Assembly: GCF_029910535.1 (NCBI RefSeq)
Contig: NZ_CP069362.1
Coordinates: forward strand, 1,488,001-1,552,000
DNA length: 64,000 nucleotides
Direction of reading: 5' to 3'
Source: Marinitoga aeolica
Lineage (GTDB): Bacteria > Thermotogota > Thermotogae > Petrotogales > Petrotogaceae
The translations under genes and the position numbers were made by a program. The notes below the pieces were generated by a model that was given only the letters and a program-made list of their open reading frames with translations, searched no databases and was not told the DNA's origin. Shown piece after piece: positions 4,364 through 13,682 of the stretch (positions are counted from its first letter, which is position 1; the number at the start of each line of letters is the position of its first letter).

Positions 4364-4742
4364 ATATAATCTTAAAAATAAACCTAAAAATTAACAATAA
4401 AAATATATCATTGATATAATAAATGTGTAAATTTATTAAATTTAAGAAAAGAAAAATTTACCATAAATTTACGTTAATGTTGTTGATTTTTTTTTTTTTT
4501 TGATAAAATTATCGTGAATTGAATAAGTGAAAAAAATCTTTATTTATATTTTAATATTAAAAATATTATTCATCAAAAATTTGTGAACTATAAAGTTATA
4601 AATTTCACAATATATTTATTGATAATAATAGAATTAAAATTTTTAGTTTATAAAATTTGTTGTATCTACGTAGATATAATTCTAAACCTTAAATATTTAG
4701 CCGGCTGATACCTTAATATTGATAAAAGGGGATGGTAATATT
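4364..4742 (+). other. A+T-rich intergenic region upstream of the peptide-maturation locus
   Basis: About 380 bases without a credible gene. It holds a long T-run near 4487-4501, an imperfect dyad with arms TTGTGAA (4581-4587) and TTCACAA (4604-4610) separated by 16 bases, a perfect 14-base palindrome next to a TATAAT hexamer (own entry), and a GCCGGC palindrome near 4701. The density of dyads suggests a regulated promoter, but no regulator gene is adjacent. Confidence 0.6.
4663..4680 (+). promoter_or_regulatory. Candidate operator-promoter of the RiPP-like locus
   Basis: The perfect palindrome TATCTACGTAGATA (4663-4676) runs directly into the hexamer TATAAT (4675-4680), a plausible -10 box 63 bases before the chosen start of the radical SAM gene. 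No good -35 box is seen at 17 bases, as would fit a promoter that depends on an activator. A protein bound at the palindrome would cover the -10 box. Sequence seen; function inferred. Confidence 0.4.
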
Positions 4743-6038
4743 ATGAATTATAAAGATTTTCACATTTTTGAAAAATTAAATGAAAAAATTATTTTTTTCC
4801 CGGAAAGTTTATCCTGTTATAAGTTAGATGAAAATTCATATAATATTTTAAAAAATTATAAAAAAAGGAATATTGATTTACCAACAGAATTAAAAGAATT
4901 TATTGAAAATAACAGAATAAAAAATAGTGAATCTATTAATAAAGAAAAAATTTTTTATGATAATATTAATTTTAATACTTTGGTGTTAAATGTAGTACAA
5001 GAATGTAATATGAAATGTATTTACTGTTTTGCTGATAATGGTACATATGGAAATACATCTATAATGAAATTTGAAACTGTAAAATTAGCATTAGAAAAAT
5101 TATACAATAATAAATTTGATCAATTATCCATCTCTTTTTTTGGCGGAGAGCCATTATTAAATTTTAAACTTATAAAAGAAGTTGTCGAATATATAGAAAA
5201 AAATTTTGATCAAAAGCCTTCTTATAATATAACAACAAACGGAACGTTGTTAAACGAAGAGACAGCAAAATTTTTAAAAAAATATAATTTTAAAGTAATG
5301 ATAAGTATTGATGGAAATGAAGAGGAAAATAACCTATTAAGACCATTAAAAAATAACGAAAATTCATTTAGAAAAATTGTAAATGGAATAAAATTGTTAG
5401 AAAAATTTGAGATTGACTATTATACAAGAATAACAGTTACAAAATTTAATCAAGAATTTGATGATTTTTGGAAAGTATATAAATTTAAAAATGTGGTTCG
5501 TGCATTTGTAGCTCCAGAAGATTATACATTATTACCTGATTTAAAAAAATACAATAAAAAAATAGAATCATATGTTTCTGGAAAAGATAATACAATTTCA
5601 GAAATAATATTATCTTCAATAATAGTTAGAAAAAATAGAATTAAAAACAAGAATCAATTGAAGATAAACTGTTTAGGAGGCGTAAGAGAAATTTCGCTCT
5701 CCGCTGATGGAAATTTGTATATGTGTCATCGCGCAACAGGAATTGAAAAATACTATATAGGTAATATATTTAAAAATACACATGATGAAATAATAAAATC
5801 AGCATACAACTTATTTAATAAAATAATGATAGGAATTGAAAATGAAAGATGTAAAAAATGTTGGGCAAAAAATTTGTGTGGTGGGGGTTGCCATTTAAAA
5901 AATGATCTACAAAAAGGATATCCAAAAGAAATTAAAAATTATTTTTGTGAACTTATAAAATTAGAATATGAATGGGCAATGGTTTTATTATCAAAAGAAA
6001 TAGCCAATAAAGAAACAAGCAACAAAGTTATCATTTGA
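4743..6038 (+). CDS. Radical SAM/SPASM peptide maturase
   Basis: A 431-residue radical SAM enzyme that probably modifies the small peptides encoded next to it. Residues 1-80 resemble the precursor-binding N-terminal region of peptide maturases (hydrophobic, with an ENSYNILKNY helix). The radical SAM motif CNMKCIYC places the cluster-binding cysteines at C88, C92 and C95, followed by FFGGEP and a TTNGTLL motif. The C-terminal SPASM region has cysteines at about 310, 328, 370, 373, 379, 383 and 402, enough for two auxiliary Fe-S clusters. A TTG at 4719 is in frame, but ATG 4743 is well spaced from AAAAGGGGATGG. Its 3' end is duplicated twice downstream as scars. Bond chemistry (thioether, C-C or other) cannot be told from sequence. 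Confidence 0.88.
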   Translation: MNYKDFHIFEKLNEKIIFFPESLSCYKLDENSYNILKNYKKRNIDLPTELKEFIENNRIKNSESINKEKIFYDNINFNTLVLNVVQECNMKCIYCFADNGTYGNTSIMKFETVKLALEKLYNNKFDQLSISFFGGEPLLNFKLIKEVVEYIEKNFDQKPSYNITTNGTLLNEETAKFLKKYNFKVMISIDGNEEENNLLRPLKNNENSFRKIVNGIKLLEKFEIDYYTRITVTKFNQEFDDFWKVYKFKNVVRAFVAPEDYTLLPDLKKYNKKIESYVSGKDNTISEIILSSIIVRKNRIKNKNQLKINCLGGVREISLSADGNLYMCHRATGIEKYYIGNIFKNTHDEIIKSAYNLFNKIMIGIENERCKKCWAKNLCGGGCHLKNDLQKGYPKEIKNYFCELIKLEYEWAMVLLSKEIANKETSNKVII

Positions 6039-6077
6039 GGTGGCTTTATTGTAATAATTCTAAAAGGGGGTATTGAT

Positions 6078-6242
6078 ATGTCATTCAAAATTATTAGTTT
6101 AAATGAACCAGAGATTTTATCAGATTCATCAGATTTAACACCGTGTGATAGTGATCCCGGTGCCGGAGATGGTGGAATGTCCTGTTTATTTATTTGTGCT
6201 CCAGGTAGTTGGGATAGAGTTTTAGAAGAAATTATGGTATGA
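6078..6242 (+). CDS. Putative RiPP precursor peptide, copy 1 (C-terminally altered)
   Basis: A 54-residue peptide beginning MSFKIISLNEPEILSDSSDL and sharing almost all of residues 1-49 with copies 2 and 3, including C23, C36 and C40 and the Gly-rich DPGAGDGG stretch. It starts at an ATG behind AAAAGGGGG. After Glu50 the reading runs into EIMV and stops: the DNA there has joined a fragment of the maturase 3' end, so the normal tail with its final Cys is missing. It could be a shortened but working precursor or a duplication by-product. It lies 39 bases downstream of the maturase. Confidence 0.75.
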   Translation: MSFKIISLNEPEILSDSSDLTPCDSDPGAGDGGMSCLFICAPGSWDRVLEEIMV

Positions 6243-6307
6243 ATGGGCAATATTTTATTATCAAAAGAAATAGCTAATAAAAAAACAGCAATAGAGTTGC
6301 TATTTGA
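6238..6307 (+). pseudogene. Remnant of the radical SAM gene 3' end (scar 1)
   Basis: From the bases TATGAATGGGCAAT onward the sequence repeats the last codons of the maturase gene (about 5967-6038) and then the spacer and ribosome binding site leading into the next precursor. One base is missing relative to the original, so the frame is broken. It marks a tandem duplication whose left end fell inside the maturase gene. Confidence 0.8.
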
Positions 6308-6345
6308 GGTGACTTTATTGTAATAATTCTAAAGGGGGTATTGAT

Positions 6346-6546
6346 ATGTCATTCAAAATTATTGGTTTGAATGAGCCAGGGATTTTATCAGATTCATCAG
6401 ATTTAACACCATGTGATAGTGATCCCGGTGCCGGAGATGGTGGAATGTCCTGTTTATTTACTTGTGCTCCAGGTAGTTGGGATAGAGTTTTAGAAACTGG
6501 AAATCCAGGTGGAGATATATACGCACCATCAAGCGGAGATTGCTAA
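6346..6546 (+). CDS. Putative RiPP precursor peptide, copy 2
   Basis: A 66-residue peptide with the conserved segment (residues 1-47; C23, C36, C40; SCLFTCAPGSWDR at 35-47) and its own tail, residues 48-66, ending PSSGDC. The ATG follows AAAGGGGG. There is no secretion signal or membrane helix, as expected for a cytoplasmic peptide that is modified and then exported. The leader/core border is unclear: the conserved part contains most of the Cys residues, whereas the tail is the variable part. A 14-bp hairpin follows, then the first peptidase-propeller gene. Confidence 0.85.
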   Translation: MSFKIIGLNEPGILSDSSDLTPCDSDPGAGDGGMSCLFTCAPGSWDRVLETGNPGGDIYAPSSGDC

Positions 6547-6570
6547 AATAATTTTTTAATTAAACTCACC

Positions 6571-6604
6571 TGACACACCTGCATTTATTGATGCAGGTGT
6601 GTCA
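6571..6604 (+). promoter_or_regulatory. Strong hairpin between precursor 2 and its downstream gene
   Basis: A perfect 14-bp stem (arms TGACACACCTGCAT and ATGCAGGTGTGTCA) with loop TTATTG. No U-run follows, so it is unlikely to be a complete terminator. It could protect the 3' end of a short precursor mRNA or give partial read-through, which would keep precursor levels above those of the peptidase. Confidence 0.65.
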
Positions 6605-6631
6605 AGTATTAAAAAGGGAGGAAGTATTTTT

Positions 6632-9151
6632 ATGATAAAAAAAAATATATTATTATTAATGTTTATTTTTCTTATAAGTTTAAGCTTTTCCATTAAACTG
6701 GATGAAAAAAAAATAAATTCAGCATATGAATATGCTATAAAAAATTATGCAAAATATAATACTAAAAATTTAGAAATATATTTTGAAAAAAATGCTAATT
6801 TTTCTCCATATATAGTTAAAATAGCATTATATTACCAAAATGAAATAAATAATTTAATAAAAATTTTTAAAATAAAAATATTCAATAAAAAAATTCCTGT
6901 AATTTTATTTGATACTAGAAAAGAAATAGTAGGATTATCAGAATATCAAGTTGGTGGTTTCTGGAATAATAAAGTAGTTTTTGGAACGCCTGTTAATTTA
7001 AAACATGAAATTGTACACGCTATTGATTTTTATACCTTTAAAGGAGAAAATCCATTTTTTAAAGAAGGACTAGCAAATTGGTTCAAATATATTAATGATG
7101 GTCTTGATCTAGGTTCAAAATATCATTTTTATGTTAAATATATGATTAAGTATTCTCAAGAATATAGGAATCTTAATTATGAAGAATTATATAAAAAAAT
7201 ATTTTTAAACTGGAAAAATGGATATACATTTGGAGCATCTTTTATAGGTTTTTTTATTGAAGAATATGGAATAAATAGATTTAAAAATTTTTATATAAAT
7301 TTAAATAGTTGGAATAAACGTCAATTAAAAGAAAATATAATACCTTATATGATAAATTGGATTAAATGGTTAAAAGACGAAAATAACACTTTCAATTATT
7401 CAGAAAATTTTATTAAATTATGTAATAAAGAAGAAAATAAAAATATAAATTTAAAAAAATTTACATCAATAAAAAACATATATTATAATGATTTTTATTA
7501 TACATCAAATAATAGAATAATATTAAATAAGAATATAAATGGAAATTTATATTCTTATACTGCTGTATATGATTTAGATTATAAAAAAGTGAAATTATAC
7601 AAAGGAACTTTTGTAACAGACTCAAAAAATTATTTATTAACAATAAATAACATAGTTAATATAAATTTTTATAATATACAAAAAAAATCTATATTATATA
7701 AAATCAATACTGATTTAGAAAATATAAGTAAAGCTTATATCTCTGAAAGTGAAAGAAAAATCTTTTTAGTAAATGGGAAAAAAATTAAAGAATATAAAAT
7801 AGAAAATGGCGAATACATAAAAACGATAGATTATGACAAATATATATCTACAATAAACGAAATAGATGGAAATATAATATATGGAACAACAGATGGAAAT
7901 ATAATAATGGAAAATAAAATTACAAAAATATCAAATGAGCCTATCAGAAAAATTGTTGAAACGGAAAAATACATAATAATACTTTCTGGAATGGATGAAT
8001 TAAGTATATTGGAAAAAAATACTTTAAAAATTATAAAAAATATTAATAATAATGAATATATACATGATATATCAATAAACAAGAAAATACAGGCATTATA
8101 TATATTATATGAAAAAGGAATAATTCAAAAAATAAATTTAAAAGATTTTAAAATAGAATATGAAAAGAATGCAGGATTTGATCCTTTAAAAAATAAGGTA
8201 ATATTAACAGATAAATACTTCATAAAAAGTGATGAAGATTATATAAACTTTTATCTTTTGGAAGAAGGAAAAAAAGAGAATGAAATAAAATATGAGCAAA
8301 TAAAATTGAAAAAATATAAAGAATGTGAAGAAAATATAATGTATTATGAATATCAAAATGGATATGAAATAATAGAAAATGAATATGCAGAATTAACAAT
8401 AAAAAAAGAAGATCAAACAATTTTAAAAAAAGAATTAGAAGATTATTTATCAAAAGTAAAAATAGTAAAAGATAAGTTATTTATCTCATGTGAAAATGGA
8501 GTAATTGAAATCTATGATCTAAAAACTGGAGAATTATTATATAAAGATAAAAAAATACAAAAAATAGCTGATTTTGATGGAAAATATATATATTATGGGA
8601 ATAAAAATAATGAAATAGTAAAATATGATTATAAAAATAAAAAAGAATTAAAAAAGTATAAAGGACATTATGGAATAATACAGGCAATAAATTTAACCAA
8701 AGATAACAAATACATAATATCGTATAATGGGTTAAGTGGAAGTATAAACTCAAATCCTGGAAATAGAATATTGATACATACTTTAGGAAAAGAGGCATAT
8801 ATAAGATCAATAACAATATTAAATCCTATCAAAAAAACAATCATTTTAAAAGATGGTTATCAACTATTAATTGAAGATACAAAATCAAATATATTTATAT
8901 ACAATATTTTAAATGGTAAATTAGAAAATATAATAATGCATCCATTAAAAAATATAAAAGCATTAGATATAAATGAAAATAAATTGATAATAACAGATGG
9001 AGAAAAAATAATGATATATAATATAACAACTGGTGAAATAGAAAAAGCATTAATTACAAAAGAATTTATAAACAACATGAAATATATAGAAGATAATAAA
9101 ATAGCAATTATTGTAGATAATATAATTTACATTAATGAGGGAAATAAATGA
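6632..9151 (+). CDS. Exported gluzincin-type peptidase with C-terminal beta-propeller, copy 1
   Basis: An 839-residue protein. Residues 1-20 form a signal peptide (MIKKNILLLMFIFLISLSFS). Residues about 30-270 form a peptidase-MA-like zinc domain with HEIVH at 125-129 and a downstream FKEGLANW glutamate about 16 residues later, the gluzincin pattern. The rest shows repeated short beta-strand units such as NGVIEIYDLKTGELLY, as in WD40/PQQ-like propellers. A GTG at 6599 is in frame, but ATG 6632 has AAGGGAGGAAG at the right spacing and exposes the signal peptide, so I chose it. The last 437 residues equal those of copy 2. A plausible role is trimming, binding or sensing of the exported peptide. 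Codons are strongly biased to ATA, TTA and AAA. Confidence 0.75.
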   Translation: MIKKNILLLMFIFLISLSFSIKLDEKKINSAYEYAIKNYAKYNTKNLEIYFEKNANFSPYIVKIALYYQNEINNLIKIFKIKIFNKKIPVILFDTRKEIVGLSEYQVGGFWNNKVVFGTPVNLKHEIVHAIDFYTFKGENPFFKEGLANWFKYINDGLDLGSKYHFYVKYMIKYSQEYRNLNYEELYKKIFLNWKNGYTFGASFIGFFIEEYGINRFKNFYINLNSWNKRQLKENIIPYMINWIKWLKDENNTFNYSENFIKLCNKEENKNINLKKFTSIKNIYYNDFYYTSNNRIILNKNINGNLYSYTAVYDLDYKKVKLYKGTFVTDSKNYLLTINNIVNINFYNIQKKSILYKINTDLENISKAYISESERKIFLVNGKKIKEYKIENGEYIKTIDYDKYISTINEIDGNIIYGTTDGNIIMENKITKISNEPIRKIVETEKYIIILSGMDELSILEKNTLKIIKNINNNEYIHDISINKKIQALYILYEKGIIQKINLKDFKIEYEKNAGFDPLKNKVILTDKYFIKSDEDYINFYLLEEGKKENEIKYEQIKLKKYKECEENIMYYEYQNGYEIIENEYAELTIKKEDQTILKKELEDYLSKVKIVKDKLFISCENGVIEIYDLKTGELLYKDKKIQKIADFDGKYIYYGNKNNEIVKYDYKNKKELKKYKGHYGIIQAINLTKDNKYIISYNGLSGSINSNPGNRILIHTLGKEAYIRSITILNPIKKTIILKDGYQLLIEDTKSNIFIYNILNGKLENIIMHPLKNIKALDINENKLIITDGEKIMIYNITTGEIEKALITKEFINNMKYIEDNKIAIIVDNIIYINEGNK
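7838..9151 (+). repeat. 1314-bp direct repeat, copy A
   Basis: From base 7838 to the stop codon the sequence matches 10826-12139 at a fixed offset of 2988 bases with no gap; the translations are identical and no base difference was noticed. Upstream of 7838 the two genes are clearly diverged. It encodes the propeller half of the two peptidase-propeller proteins. Confidence 0.92.
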
Positions 9152-9177
9152 TATAGGAAGAGCCCTTAGAATTTTGA

Positions 9178-9278
9178 ATTATTTTTGTGAACTTATAAAA
9201 TTAGAATATGAATGGACAATGGTTTTATTATCAAAAGAAATAGCCAATAATGAAACAAACAATAAAGTTGCTATTTGA
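9178..9278 (+). pseudogene. Remnant of the radical SAM gene 3' end (scar 2)
   Basis: The segment translates as NYFCELIKLEYEW followed by 20 further residues and a stop, closely matching the last 33 codons of the maturase (from about 5938) with a few substitutions. The same spacer and ribosome binding site as upstream of precursors 1 and 2 follow. It shows that the precursor 3 plus peptidase 2 block arose from a copy of the maturase-precursor-peptidase unit placed between peptidase 1 and the ABC genes. Confidence 0.85.
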
Positions 9279-9317
9279 GGTGGCTTTATTGTAATAATTC
9301 TAAAAGGGGGTATTGAT

Positions 9318-9527
9318 ATGTCATTCAAAATTATTAGTTTGAATGAACCAGGGATTTTATCAGATTCATCAGATTTAACACCATGTGATAGTGATCCAGG
9401 TGCTGGAGATGGTGGGATGTCCTGTTTATTTACTTGTGCTCCAGGTAGTTGGGATAGAATAGCCGAAACTGGAATTTGTGCTGAAGATATTATACCACCT
9501 ATATTAATTCCAGGTTCATGTAATTAA
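9318..9527 (+). CDS. Putative RiPP precursor peptide, copy 3
   Basis: A 69-residue peptide with the same residues 1-47 as copy 2 apart from a single substitution (C23, C36, C40 kept), then a different tail, residues 48-69, with extra cysteines at 54 and 68 and the ending PGSCN. Start ATG behind AAAAGGGGG. The tail shares only ETG and a near-terminal Cys with copy 2, so divergence is concentrated after residue 47. A hairpin and the second peptidase-propeller gene follow, repeating the layout of copy 2. Confidence 0.85.
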   Translation: MSFKIISLNEPGILSDSSDLTPCDSDPGAGDGGMSCLFTCAPGSWDRIAETGICAEDIIPPILIPGSCN

Positions 9528-9533
9528 TTCCAA

Positions 9534-9557
9534 GGGTGTTCATATAATCGAACACCC
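9534..9557 (+). promoter_or_regulatory. Hairpin between precursor 3 and its downstream gene
   Basis: An 8-bp stem, GGGTGTTC/GAACACCC, with an 8-base loop, followed by CTCTTCC rather than a U-run. It occupies the same place as the 14-bp hairpin after precursor 2 but has an unrelated sequence, so a structure, not a sequence, seems to be kept here. Confidence 0.6.
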
Positions 9558-9589
9558 CTCTTCCTATTAAAATAAAAGGAGTTGATATT

Positions 9590-12139
9590 TTGAAATACTT
9601 AAGAATTTTATTTTTATTGATTATAATCATATTTAGTAATATAATATATGGAATTGTAAAAATCGATAAAAATAAATTACATTCGTTATACGAATATGCA
9701 CAAAAATATTATGCAAAATATGAAACCAAGAATTTAGAGATTTATTTTGAAAAAAATTCTCCATTTAGAAAACATATTGTTATTTATGCAAAACTATTTC
9801 AGGATGAGGTGGATTATTTTATTAAAGCTTTTGAAGAAAAAGAAATCCCAGAAAAAATTATTATTGTCATCATTAATAGTGATTTAGACAAATTGGCATT
9901 TTCTAATGAGAATGCATCATTTACTACAGCAATAAAGGATAAAGATAAAATTAAAACCTTTATTTTTTCATCATGGTGGTCTATTCCACACGAAATAGTT
10001 CATGGTTTATGTGGTATATTATGGGGCAAAAGCGGAGTTCCCTTTGTAGATGAAGCTTTTGCAAGCTGGTTTAGATGGTATGATAATCCGTATATTATAA
10101 ATAGTTATAATAAAACAATAAAAAAAATAATAATAGATTCTGATGAATTTAAAGATTTGACATTTAATGAGAAGTTTAAAAGGATTTTCTTTAATTTTAG
10201 GAATGGTTATACTTTTGGTATTTCATTTTTTGATTTTATTAGAAAAAAATATGGTTATAGTGAACTAAAAAAATTATATCAGGGATCAGCAATTTTTTCA
10301 GAAAAAATGCTGGAGGAAAAATTAAAGGTATATGCTCAAAACTGGTTTAAATGGCTTGAAGAATCAGATTTTGAAGGTAATTATTACTATGTATTGATTT
10401 CTAAGTACTATAACCATAATTTAGTAAATAATCTGGAAAAAAATTTATATTCGATAAAAAATATTACAAATGATTTTTATTTTGACTCACAGCTTAATGC
10501 ATTAATTTTTAATTTTGATTATTCCACAAGAACTGGTTTCATATATTATTTAAATAATGAAAGCATAGAGGTTTATAATTCAATGCCTTTAGCTATTTCT
10601 AAAAATTATATAGTAAAATTTGAAGAGTATAATTCATTTTATATTTTAGATAAAAATAACACTAATAAAAAGATAAAATTAAATATAAATTATAAATATA
10701 TAATTCCATTTATATTTATATCAGAAAATGAAAAAAAATTAATAGTAGTAAACGGAGAAAAAGTAAATGAAATTAATGAATACAGTATTGATACCGGCAA
10801 GCACATAAAAACAATGAATTATAATAAATATATATCTACAATAAACGAAATAGATGGAAATATAATATATGGAACAACAGATGGAAATATAATAATGGAA
10901 AATAAAATTACAAAAATATCAAATGAGCCTATCAGAAAAATTGTTGAAACGGAAAAATACATAATAATACTTTCTGGAATGGATGAATTAAGTATATTGG
11001 AAAAAAATACTTTAAAAATTATAAAAAATATTAATAATAATGAATATATACATGATATATCAATAAACAAGAAAATACAGGCATTATATATATTATATGA
11101 AAAAGGAATAATTCAAAAAATAAATTTAAAAGATTTTAAAATAGAATATGAAAAGAATGCAGGATTTGATCCTTTAAAAAATAAGGTAATATTAACAGAT
11201 AAATACTTCATAAAAAGTGATGAAGATTATATAAACTTTTATCTTTTGGAAGAAGGAAAAAAAGAGAATGAAATAAAATATGAGCAAATAAAATTGAAAA
11301 AATATAAAGAATGTGAAGAAAATATAATGTATTATGAATATCAAAATGGATATGAAATAATAGAAAATGAATATGCAGAATTAACAATAAAAAAAGAAGA
11401 TCAAACAATTTTAAAAAAAGAATTAGAAGATTATTTATCAAAAGTAAAAATAGTAAAAGATAAGTTATTTATCTCATGTGAAAATGGAGTAATTGAAATC
11501 TATGATCTAAAAACTGGAGAATTATTATATAAAGATAAAAAAATACAAAAAATAGCTGATTTTGATGGAAAATATATATATTATGGGAATAAAAATAATG
11601 AAATAGTAAAATATGATTATAAAAATAAAAAAGAATTAAAAAAGTATAAAGGACATTATGGAATAATACAGGCAATAAATTTAACCAAAGATAACAAATA
11701 CATAATATCGTATAATGGGTTAAGTGGAAGTATAAACTCAAATCCTGGAAATAGAATATTGATACATACTTTAGGAAAAGAGGCATATATAAGATCAATA
11801 ACAATATTAAATCCTATCAAAAAAACAATCATTTTAAAAGATGGTTATCAACTATTAATTGAAGATACAAAATCAAATATATTTATATACAATATTTTAA
11901 ATGGTAAATTAGAAAATATAATAATGCATCCATTAAAAAATATAAAAGCATTAGATATAAATGAAAATAAATTGATAATAACAGATGGAGAAAAAATAAT
12001 GATATATAATATAACAACTGGTGAAATAGAAAAAGCATTAATTACAAAAGAATTTATAAACAACATGAAATATATAGAAGATAATAAAATAGCAATTATT
12101 GTAGATAATATAATTTACATTAATGAGGGAAATAAATGA
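9590..12139 (+). CDS. Exported gluzincin-type peptidase with C-terminal beta-propeller, copy 2
   Basis: An 849-residue paralogue of the gene at 6632. It begins at a TTG behind AAAAGGA, followed by a signal peptide (ILFLLIIIIFSNIIYG). HEIVH lies at residues 134-138, with the FVDEAFASWF glutamate 17 residues later. Residues 1-412 are homologous to copy 1 but strongly diverged, with a few different blocks; residues 413-849 are identical to copy 1. Codon use in the N-terminal half is less ATA-biased than in the shared half, so the gene looks like a mosaic. Its TGA overlaps the ATG of the ABC permease (ATGA), pointing to translational coupling to export. Confidence 0.75.
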   Translation: MKYLRILFLLIIIIFSNIIYGIVKIDKNKLHSLYEYAQKYYAKYETKNLEIYFEKNSPFRKHIVIYAKLFQDEVDYFIKAFEEKEIPEKIIIVIINSDLDKLAFSNENASFTTAIKDKDKIKTFIFSSWWSIPHEIVHGLCGILWGKSGVPFVDEAFASWFRWYDNPYIINSYNKTIKKIIIDSDEFKDLTFNEKFKRIFFNFRNGYTFGISFFDFIRKKYGYSELKKLYQGSAIFSEKMLEEKLKVYAQNWFKWLEESDFEGNYYYVLISKYYNHNLVNNLEKNLYSIKNITNDFYFDSQLNALIFNFDYSTRTGFIYYLNNESIEVYNSMPLAISKNYIVKFEEYNSFYILDKNNTNKKIKLNINYKYIIPFIFISENEKKLIVVNGEKVNEINEYSIDTGKHIKTMNYNKYISTINEIDGNIIYGTTDGNIIMENKITKISNEPIRKIVETEKYIIILSGMDELSILEKNTLKIIKNINNNEYIHDISINKKIQALYILYEKGIIQKINLKDFKIEYEKNAGFDPLKNKVILTDKYFIKSDEDYINFYLLEEGKKENEIKYEQIKLKKYKECEENIMYYEYQNGYEIIENEYAELTIKKEDQTILKKELEDYLSKVKIVKDKLFISCENGVIEIYDLKTGELLYKDKKIQKIADFDGKYIYYGNKNNEIVKYDYKNKKELKKYKGHYGIIQAINLTKDNKYIISYNGLSGSINSNPGNRILIHTLGKEAYIRSITILNPIKKTIILKDGYQLLIEDTKSNIFIYNILNGKLENIIMHPLKNIKALDINENKLIITDGEKIMIYNITTGEIEKALITKEFINNMKYIEDNKIAIIVDNIIYINEGNK
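10826..12139 (+). repeat. 1314-bp direct repeat, copy B
   Basis: Second copy of the propeller-encoding repeat (see 7838-9151). Identity ends exactly at the stop codon: afterwards copy A runs into scar 2 and copy B into the ABC permease gene. Confidence 0.92.
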
Positions 12140-12948
12140 AAAAAATAAAAAAATTTTTGTATTTTTTAGGTAGAGATATACTCATATGGAAAAGTTATAA
12201 AACACAAGCAGTACTGGGAATACTCAGTGGATTTTTAGGATTATTACAATTTGGATTCATGGGAAGGTTCATAGCTCAGGGTAATTACTTTCCAATGATT
12301 GAACAATATGGGGGAAATATTCTTGCATATTTCATATCTGGAAGCGTATTTATGAGTTATACTACTCTCTCTCTAACAACATTTAAAAGTGTAATAAGAC
12401 AGGAGCAGGTAATGGGAACAATAGAATACCTGCTTCTGTCTGAAACACCATTATGGGAAGTGTTTATATACACTATATTCTCAAAATTGATATTTACAAT
12501 ATTAAACACAGGAATTGTATTTGTATTTTTAATATATACATTTAATGTAGAAATAAAAATGAATATAATATCTTCAATAATATTATTAATAATAACAATG
12601 ATAAGTTTAAGTGGAATAGGATTATTAAGTGCAGGATTTATTGTAATAACAAAAAAAGGTGATCCTGTGAGCTGGGTATATTCATTCTTAACAGGAATGT
12701 TTTCTGGTATATATTATCCAGTAGAAATATTACCAAAATGGTTAAGAGGTATATCTTATATATTACCAACAACATATGCAATGGATGGATTGAGAAAAAC
12801 ATTAATAAATGGATATACTTTATACCAAATAAAAGAGGATATAATAATATTGATTATAATGACAATAATAATATTACCAATAGGAATGTACTGGTTTAAA
12901 AACAGTTTTGATAAAGCAAGAAAATATGGCACAATATCGCAATATTAG
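12136..12948 (+). CDS. ABC-2 type transporter permease
   Basis: A 270-residue membrane protein with about six hydrophobic segments and the layout of ABC-2 (drug/peptide exporter) permeases, including the MGTIEYLLLSETPLWEVF coupling-helix region and a YPVEILPKWLRGISYILP motif before the last helices. The ATG overlaps the stop of peptidase-propeller 2, and the ATPase gene follows after 11 bases. It probably exports the modified peptide; direct proof is lacking. In peptidase copy 1 the same ATGA is followed by ATA TAG, so only one permease start remains. Confidence 0.85.
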   Translation: MKKIKKFLYFLGRDILIWKSYKTQAVLGILSGFLGLLQFGFMGRFIAQGNYFPMIEQYGGNILAYFISGSVFMSYTTLSLTTFKSVIRQEQVMGTIEYLLLSETPLWEVFIYTIFSKLIFTILNTGIVFVFLIYTFNVEIKMNIISSIILLIITMISLSGIGLLSAGFIVITKKGDPVSWVYSFLTGMFSGIYYPVEILPKWLRGISYILPTTYAMDGLRKTLINGYTLYQIKEDIIILIIMTIIILPIGMYWFKNSFDKARKYGTISQY

Positions 12949-12959
12949 GATGTGAAAAA

Positions 12960-13682
12960 ATGGAAAAAATAATAGAAATAAAAAATCTGACAAAGATATA
13001 CAAAAATGGGATAAAAGCATTAAAAAACATAAATCTTACAATAAACAGAGGAGAAAAAGTAACAATATTCGGCTCAAATGGAGCAGGAAAAACAACATTA
13101 ATAAAAACAATAGGGATGTTTATAATACCAGATGACGGTGAAATAAAAATAAAAGAATATGACATAAAAAAAGAATCAAAACAAATAAAAAAATTAATAT
13201 CAATAGCAACATCAAATGAAAGGTCATTTTACTATAGATTGAATTTAGAAGAAAATTTAAATTTTTTTGGAATGTTAAATAATCTAACAGGAAAAGAATT
13301 AAAAAAGAAAGTAGAAAAGGGATTAAAAGAGATGGGGTTATATGAAAACAGAAAAATCAAATATATGGAAGCATCAACAGGAATGAAAAGAAGATTAAAT
13401 TTAGCAAGAGCATTAATAAAAGAAGCGGAAATATATTTATTAGATGAACCGACAAATGGAGTGGATATAGAAACAAAGATGAAAATATATGAAATAATGG
13501 AAGAATTATCCAAAAATGGAAAAACAATAATATTAGCAAGTCATGATGTAAGTGAAATAGAGAAAACCGATAGAATAGTGGTATTAAAAAAAGGAGAAAT
13601 AACAGCAGACATAAAAACAGAAGAATTACTGGAAAAAACAACGAGAAAAAATGAAGAACGGTTGTTGGAATTAATAAAATGA
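12960..13682 (+). CDS. ABC transporter ATP-binding protein
   Basis: A 240-residue ATPase with Walker A GSNGAGKTT near residue 38, a signature-like motif STGMKRRLNLARAL, Walker B EIYLLDEPTNGVD and the SHD switch histidine. It pairs with the permease just upstream and ends the accessory operon. The signature reads STGMKRR rather than LSGGQ, common in ABC-2 exporters. Very A-rich codon use resembles that of the peptidase-propeller genes. Confidence 0.9.
   Translation: MEKIIEIKNLTKIYKNGIKALKNINLTINRGEKVTIFGSNGAGKTTLIKTIGMFIIPDDGEIKIKEYDIKKESKQIKKLISIATSNERSFYYRLNLEENLNFFGMLNNLTGKELKKKVEKGLKEMGLYENRKIKYMEASTGMKRRLNLARALIKEAEIYLLDEPTNGVDIETKMKIYEIMEELSKNGKTIILASHDVSEIEKTDRIVVLKKGEITADIKTEELLEKTTRKNEERLLELIK

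Follow-up and report, generated by a model that had tools for sequence, protein, structure and literature searches.

Between the atp and rpoBC operons of a heat-loving Marinitoga lies a genuine, apparently undescribed variant of the radical SAM RiPP locus, in which a PapB-like maturase and small Cys-containing precursors are accompanied by two exported proteins, each predicted to join a gluzincin-like zinc peptidase domain to a beta-propeller. The precursor tail and the peptidase domain of the two copies have diverged together, which points to cognate peptide-protease pairs, and we tentatively favour the reading that each exported protease processes its own peptide.

A radical SAM peptide island at the atp-rpoC junction

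The window, as we call the 64-kb stretch of DNA that was analysed (G000 C1:1488001-1552000; the G000 genome is one contig of 2.44 Mb), contains all the parts that a sequence-only reading had placed there, namely a radical SAM/SPASM protein, small peptides, two exported proteins and an ABC-2 exporter, and the position of the island between atp and rpoBC was confirmed at the atp-rpoC junction (Table 1). One detail had to be amended. The three peptide copies are all present, but copy 1 is truncated at its 3' end: its tail (...VLEEIMV) continues directly into a piece of the radical SAM 3' end, which marks a duplication junction. Precursors 2 and 3 are complete, and a protease gene follows directly after each of them. 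This precursor is found at one locus only in the G000 genome.

In a comparison with the congener G039 the genes showed no internal stops, and dN/dS came to 0.08 in the permease, 0.16 in the precursor, 0.20 in the radical SAM gene and 0.27 in each of the two parts of protease A. Since dN/dS is low and internal stops are absent, the peptide genes are under selection; chance ORFs were ruled out by the open frames, the conservation and these ratios.

Table 1. Features of the island (positions in the window)
Feature	Position	Strand	Remarks
Best promoter-like site	4391..4420	+	Between atpC and the radical SAM gene; TTAACA-18-TATAAT, extended -10; 11/12 positions fit the consensus; predicted from this fit only
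Radical SAM/SPASM peptide maturase, PapB-like, 431 aa	4743..6038	+	NF047865 profile match and Cys motifs
Precursor copy 1, 3'-truncated at duplication junction	6078..6242	+	
Duplicated radical SAM 3'-end fragment and intergenic region with RBS	6243..6345	+	
Precursor copy 2, type A tail, 66 aa	6346..6546	+	dN/dS 0.16 vs G039
Stable hairpin, precursor 2/protease A gap	6567..6608	.	z -5.6
Protease A, 839 aa: signal segment, gluzincin-like peptidase domain, C-terminal beta-propeller (probably two)	6632..9151	+	
Second duplicated radical SAM 3'-end fragment	9152..9278	+	
Precursor copy 3, type B tail, 69 aa	9318..9527	+	
Hairpin, precursor 3/protease B gap	9533..9558	.	z -4.1; sequence unrelated to the first hairpin
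Protease B: divergent peptidase domain; propeller with the same DNA sequence as in protease A	9590..12139	+	
ABC-2 permease	12136..12948	+	PF01061 E 6e-16; a second genomic copy is 99% identical in aa
ABC ATPase without peptidase domain	12960..13682	+	PF00005 E 5e-31

A PapB-like maturase beside a conserved precursor

The maturase matches the Pfam families Radical_SAM (E 1e-21) and SPASM (E 5e-6), and carries the CX3CX2C motif at residue 88 together with the full SPASM Cys set that marks a radical SAM/SPASM peptide maturase. Its best curated family is PapB (NF047865; 216 bits, E 8e-64, below the equivalog cut-off of 340), and beside it lies an encoded, conserved precursor, the arrangement by which a RiPP locus is recognised. 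The PapB/PapA (freyrasin-type) ranthipeptides, which provide this closest maturase family, likewise pair a SPASM enzyme with a small Cys precursor. They differ from the island, however, not only in the score of the maturase but also in the exported proteases, present here, and in the precursor: on inspection of the sequences, the repeated Cys-X3-Asp/Glu of PapB-type precursors is absent, the cysteines stand as C22-DSD and C36-LFT-C40, and the conserved part is without CX3D. Precursor homology across genera gave mixed results in shuffle tests; the likeness is suggestive, and we make no claim of homology.

The claim of an undescribed RiPP system is borne out in part. That this is a radical SAM RiPP locus is well supported by the PapB-like maturase, the conserved Cys precursor, the exporter and their co-occurrence in congeners, whereas partial precedents exist for the proteases (see below). 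The best reading of the sequences is a ranthipeptide-like RiPP, with the maturase predicted to act on the peptide.

The exported proteins carry a putative zinc peptidase domain and a propeller

Both proteases start with a strongly hydrophobic N-terminal signal segment and carry HEIVH at residue 125 (A) or 134 (B), followed about 20 residues on by a Glu motif (EGLANWF or EAFASWF, respectively). None of 20,000 shuffles gave this combined pattern of zinc motif and downstream Glu, and H125, E126 and H129 are invariant across all relatives. In a full-length AF2 model the propeller was good and the peptidase part poor, and Foldseek on the full model listed WD proteins; the peptidase domain was therefore modelled alone. 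The resulting model, of modest confidence (pTM 0.54), has helices at 123-135 and 141-154, so that HExxH is followed by a Glu in the next helix, as in gluzincins. Its top Foldseek matches were mainly gluzincins (M9 collagenases, M30 lugdulysin, LTA4 hydrolase, M60-like, aminopeptidase N/M1), all of them weak (E 0.03-9), and EryP, a lanthipeptide zinc peptidase, was among the weak matches. With the same domain, Pfam returned no matches and a sequence profile search of the PDB returned weak unrelated matches only. A predicted gluzincin fold is supported by the motif and by the consistency of the Foldseek matches, none of them individually significant. The C-terminal ~540 residues form a WD-like beta-propeller, whose best matches are tandem-propeller proteins. 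An isopeptidase of the lasso type (alpha/beta-hydrolase, Ser-His-Asp/Glu) was considered and rejected, as the proteins have the zinc motif instead and lack an S9 Pfam match.

Precursor tails and peptidase domains diverge together

We aligned the DNA of cassette A (precursor 2 and protease A) to that of cassette B (precursor 3 and protease B). Identity is 89% over the upstream radical SAM fragment and intergenic region and 95% over precursor codons 1-48, drops to 55% in the precursor tail, 43% in the hairpin region, 53% in the signal and peptidase domain and 56% in the linker, and is complete in the propeller (1311/1311 positions, 1.3 kb). In M. lauensis, the two propellers (A and B) agree to 98.1%, and each is ~87% identical to that of G000; the propeller has thus been homogenised in both species while the front parts stayed diverged. 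The type A tail accompanies the type A protease in G000, G039 and G041, and the type B tail is represented by one example. This coupled divergence of precursor tail and catalytic domain is what points to cognate peptide-protease pairs. Each precursor-protease gap also holds a stable hairpin, with unrelated sequences in A and B, whose stem plausibly limits read-through, so that the peptide would exceed the protease.

The protease A gene (pepA) shows a dS of 0.027 and a dN/dS of 0.59 between G000 and G041, genomes whose rpoBC are 88% identical, so it has moved between species recently. A bolder idea, which we regard as rather unlikely, is that precursor tail and catalytic domain form an exchangeable specificity cassette, set between conserved recombination flanks (the leader-coding region and the propeller) and moving among Marinitoga species, from which strains assemble private pairs. 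This would resemble the diversification of cognate signal-receptor or toxin-immunity systems, with a radical SAM peptide and an exported zinc protease as the partners.

The reading that we put first, at a probability slightly short of even, is that the locus makes a ranthipeptide-like RiPP and that, after export, the cognate exported protease processes the peptide to its active form. The PapB-like enzyme would recognise the precursor by its conserved first ~48 residues and cross-link it through Cys in the cytoplasm, and the ABC-2 pair would export the peptide with its leader. Because this exporter has no peptidase domain, a separate processing protease would be required: beyond the inner membrane, the peptide would be cut by its own cognate zinc protease, the product of the next gene downstream, which would be exported by its signal peptide and dock through its propeller. 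On this view, the two cassettes would be a diversified duplicate, sharing the docking propeller and the leader region and differing in product tail and cutting specificity.

The island in other Marinitoga genomes

Seven Marinitoga genomes were compared (G000, G039, G040, which is M. lauensis LG1, G041, G042, G043 and G044). The island is intact at the atp-rpoC junction in G000. In G044 the radical SAM gene follows atpC and the end of the propeller and the exporter precede rpoC, the middle having been lost at contig ends. G039 carries radical SAM, precursor, protease A, a 165-aa protein and exporter at another site, and its own atp-rpoC junction is empty. The 165-aa protein (L023 3842-4339; L088 1598-2092) is exported; it separates protease from exporter in G039, occurs next to another RiPP locus in G041 and is missing from the window island. 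In G042 and G043 there is no island.

The association of maturase, peptide and peptidase proposed from the window thus recurred in congeners when neighbourhoods were compared, and the condition named for its refutation, that homologous loci show no such association, does not hold. The protease family was not found outside the genus: 103 Thermotogota genomes gave nothing beyond weak propeller matches (the contig scan used two short peptide patterns).

Could the proteases have a role apart from making the peptide? In G041 the radical SAM gene is gone from the locus, the precursor carries C36Y and a frameshifted tail and the permease is truncated, yet the protease is intact, with 839 codons. M. 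lauensis keeps both proteases only, inverted and without radical SAM gene or precursor; they are frameshifted, which may reflect long-read assembly errors, as rpoC is broken there too. Such persistence where production is lost would suit a reading in which the exported proteases serve self-protection or turnover, destroying the mature peptide outside the cell, as lasso isopeptidases, also propeller plus peptidase and cognate-only, linearise their lasso peptide (PMC9266682). The transfer of a near-identical pepA between species also fits this. Against it, the loss of production may be recent, the raised pepA dN/dS between G000 and G041 being expected under relaxed constraint, and a role in immunity only would leave the locus without an enzyme for leader removal. 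We regard turnover or immunity as somewhat unlikely, though a serious competitor.

A further view, that the protease-propellers have an older envelope function and became neighbours of RiPP genes through recombination only, the peptide being processed by something else, appears improbable to us. It would account for an orphan relative (pepC) encoded away from precursors in G000, G040 and G042, and for an island that has been shuffled, duplicated and inverted, but not for the joint divergence of tail and peptidase domain, the adjacency of precursor and protease in three Marinitoga genomes, or the independent pattern in other genera described below.

S41 proteases take the place of the peptidase-propellers in other genera

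Loci with PapB-like radical SAM proteins (216 and 238 bits), permeases 56-59% identical and Cys precursors are present in G019, which we take to be Kosmotoga olearia, and G080, presumably Thermosipho melanesiensis. They encode exported Peptidase_S41 proteins (PF03572, E 9e-17 to 5e-27). Thus these clusters share with the island the maturase type, a Cys precursor, a related exporter permease and an exported protease, but the protease is S41 without a propeller and the precursor sequence is different. T. melanesiensis has two units of radical SAM, S41 and precursor genes, in that order, whose precursors share their first part and differ in the tail; G077 has a third such unit, and in G085 a precursor-like ORF is flanked on both sides by S41 genes (two). 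At a Kosmotoga-type locus (L080 1354-5654 and 17026-19999) there are four S41 genes, two of them near-identical except at the C-terminus. Tmel_0409, which may be the T. melanesiensis locus L084, has been listed as a sactipeptide cluster (PMC4289311).

Since S41 replaces the peptidase-propeller where maturase and exporter are of the same families as in the island, exported proteases are both recurrent and lineage-specific. Full-length S41 genes are kept in G081, G082 and G083 without cluster radical SAM gene or precursor. The exported protease is therefore a recurrent, often duplicated and lineage-swapped part of these loci that persists in apparent non-producers. Intact proteases without maturase or precursor in several relatives (G041, and G081-G083 with S41) count against maturation and fit clearance or immunity better; that no other leader protease is present at the locus favours maturation. 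Maturation by the cognate protease is still the reading that we prefer.

Comparison with known systems

The sequence-only reading could name no RiPP class with such proteins, but both halves have precedents. Lasso isopeptidases (AtxE2, SpI-IsoP) fuse a beta-propeller to a serine peptidase, act on cognate peptides only and are encoded within the RiPP cluster, but they are serine hydrolases, work without a radical SAM enzyme and linearise the product (PMC9266682). AplP-type M1 (AplP/EryP) and MfuP M61 peptidases are gluzincin-family HExxH zinc enzymes that act on RiPP leaders or core; unlike the window proteases they serve lanthipeptides and have no propeller (PMC10885120). For a C-terminal protease in a sactipeptide-like cluster, a role in immunity or leader cleavage has been suggested (PMC3132745). 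What stands is the combination: in a literature search of incomplete coverage we found no paper on, and no precedent for, an exported gluzincin/WD-like-propeller fusion with a radical SAM precursor.

A possible relation to the TM1316 locus had also been raised, and here only the export machinery agrees. In the TM1316-type region of T. maritima (G090, which we take to be strain MSB8), the ABC-2 exporter is of the same family (ABCm 54%, ABCa 49%) and radical SAM genes are present, but the peptidase-propeller is not shared, and the precursor gave no match in the G090 genome at E<=1. With the homologous small peptide and the peptidase-propeller absent, membership of the TM1316 system was rejected beyond exporter homology. 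TM1316 is reportedly, by the title of its study, induced by stationary phase and nutrient level. This induction and the related exporter and radical SAM genes at L092/L093 would suit a product that acts as a cell-density signal, functionally akin to that of TM1316, with the protease-propeller in its release or perception. We hold this to be very unlikely, as neither precursor nor protease is shared with T. maritima and the island has no sensor gene.

Other RiPP loci

A second copy of the ABC-2 exporter (L071 9482-11028; G000 C1 ~2385.5-2387.0 kb), 98.9% identical over 1547 bp, points to recent duplication or gene conversion; it belongs to a different RiPP locus, where two Clo7bot-like radical SAM genes lie with a small Cys peptide. 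At another PapB-like locus (262 bits; L071 15802-18594; L088 4974-6799), the precursor has many C-X3/4-D motifs, and an exported protein of 427 aa is perhaps a propeller; the suspicion that this protein is a protease was dropped, as it has no Pfam matches. A further RiPP locus (L069 8311-16301; G000 C1 538-546 kb) has two small Cys peptides, a broken radical SAM gene and an IS3-like transposase pair inserted within an ABC transporter gene. A family of ~480-570-aa TPR-like proteins, possibly peptide-responsive regulators, lies repeatedly divergent beside Thermotogota radical SAM peptide loci, including those of T. maritima (L071; L069 6031-7686; L074 5695-7149; L193 4208-5659; L092 7311-8918; L093 5044-6612), and is absent from the window island.

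Implications

For many radical SAM peptides, to our knowledge, processing and fate after export are unknown. The island, together with the S41 loci of Thermosipho and Kosmotoga, singles out particular exported proteases, and because one genome holds two matched pairs (A and B), cognate specificity is directly testable. If the reading is true, the exported gluzincin-propeller would join the RiPP proteases and would provide heat-stable peptide-processing enzymes.
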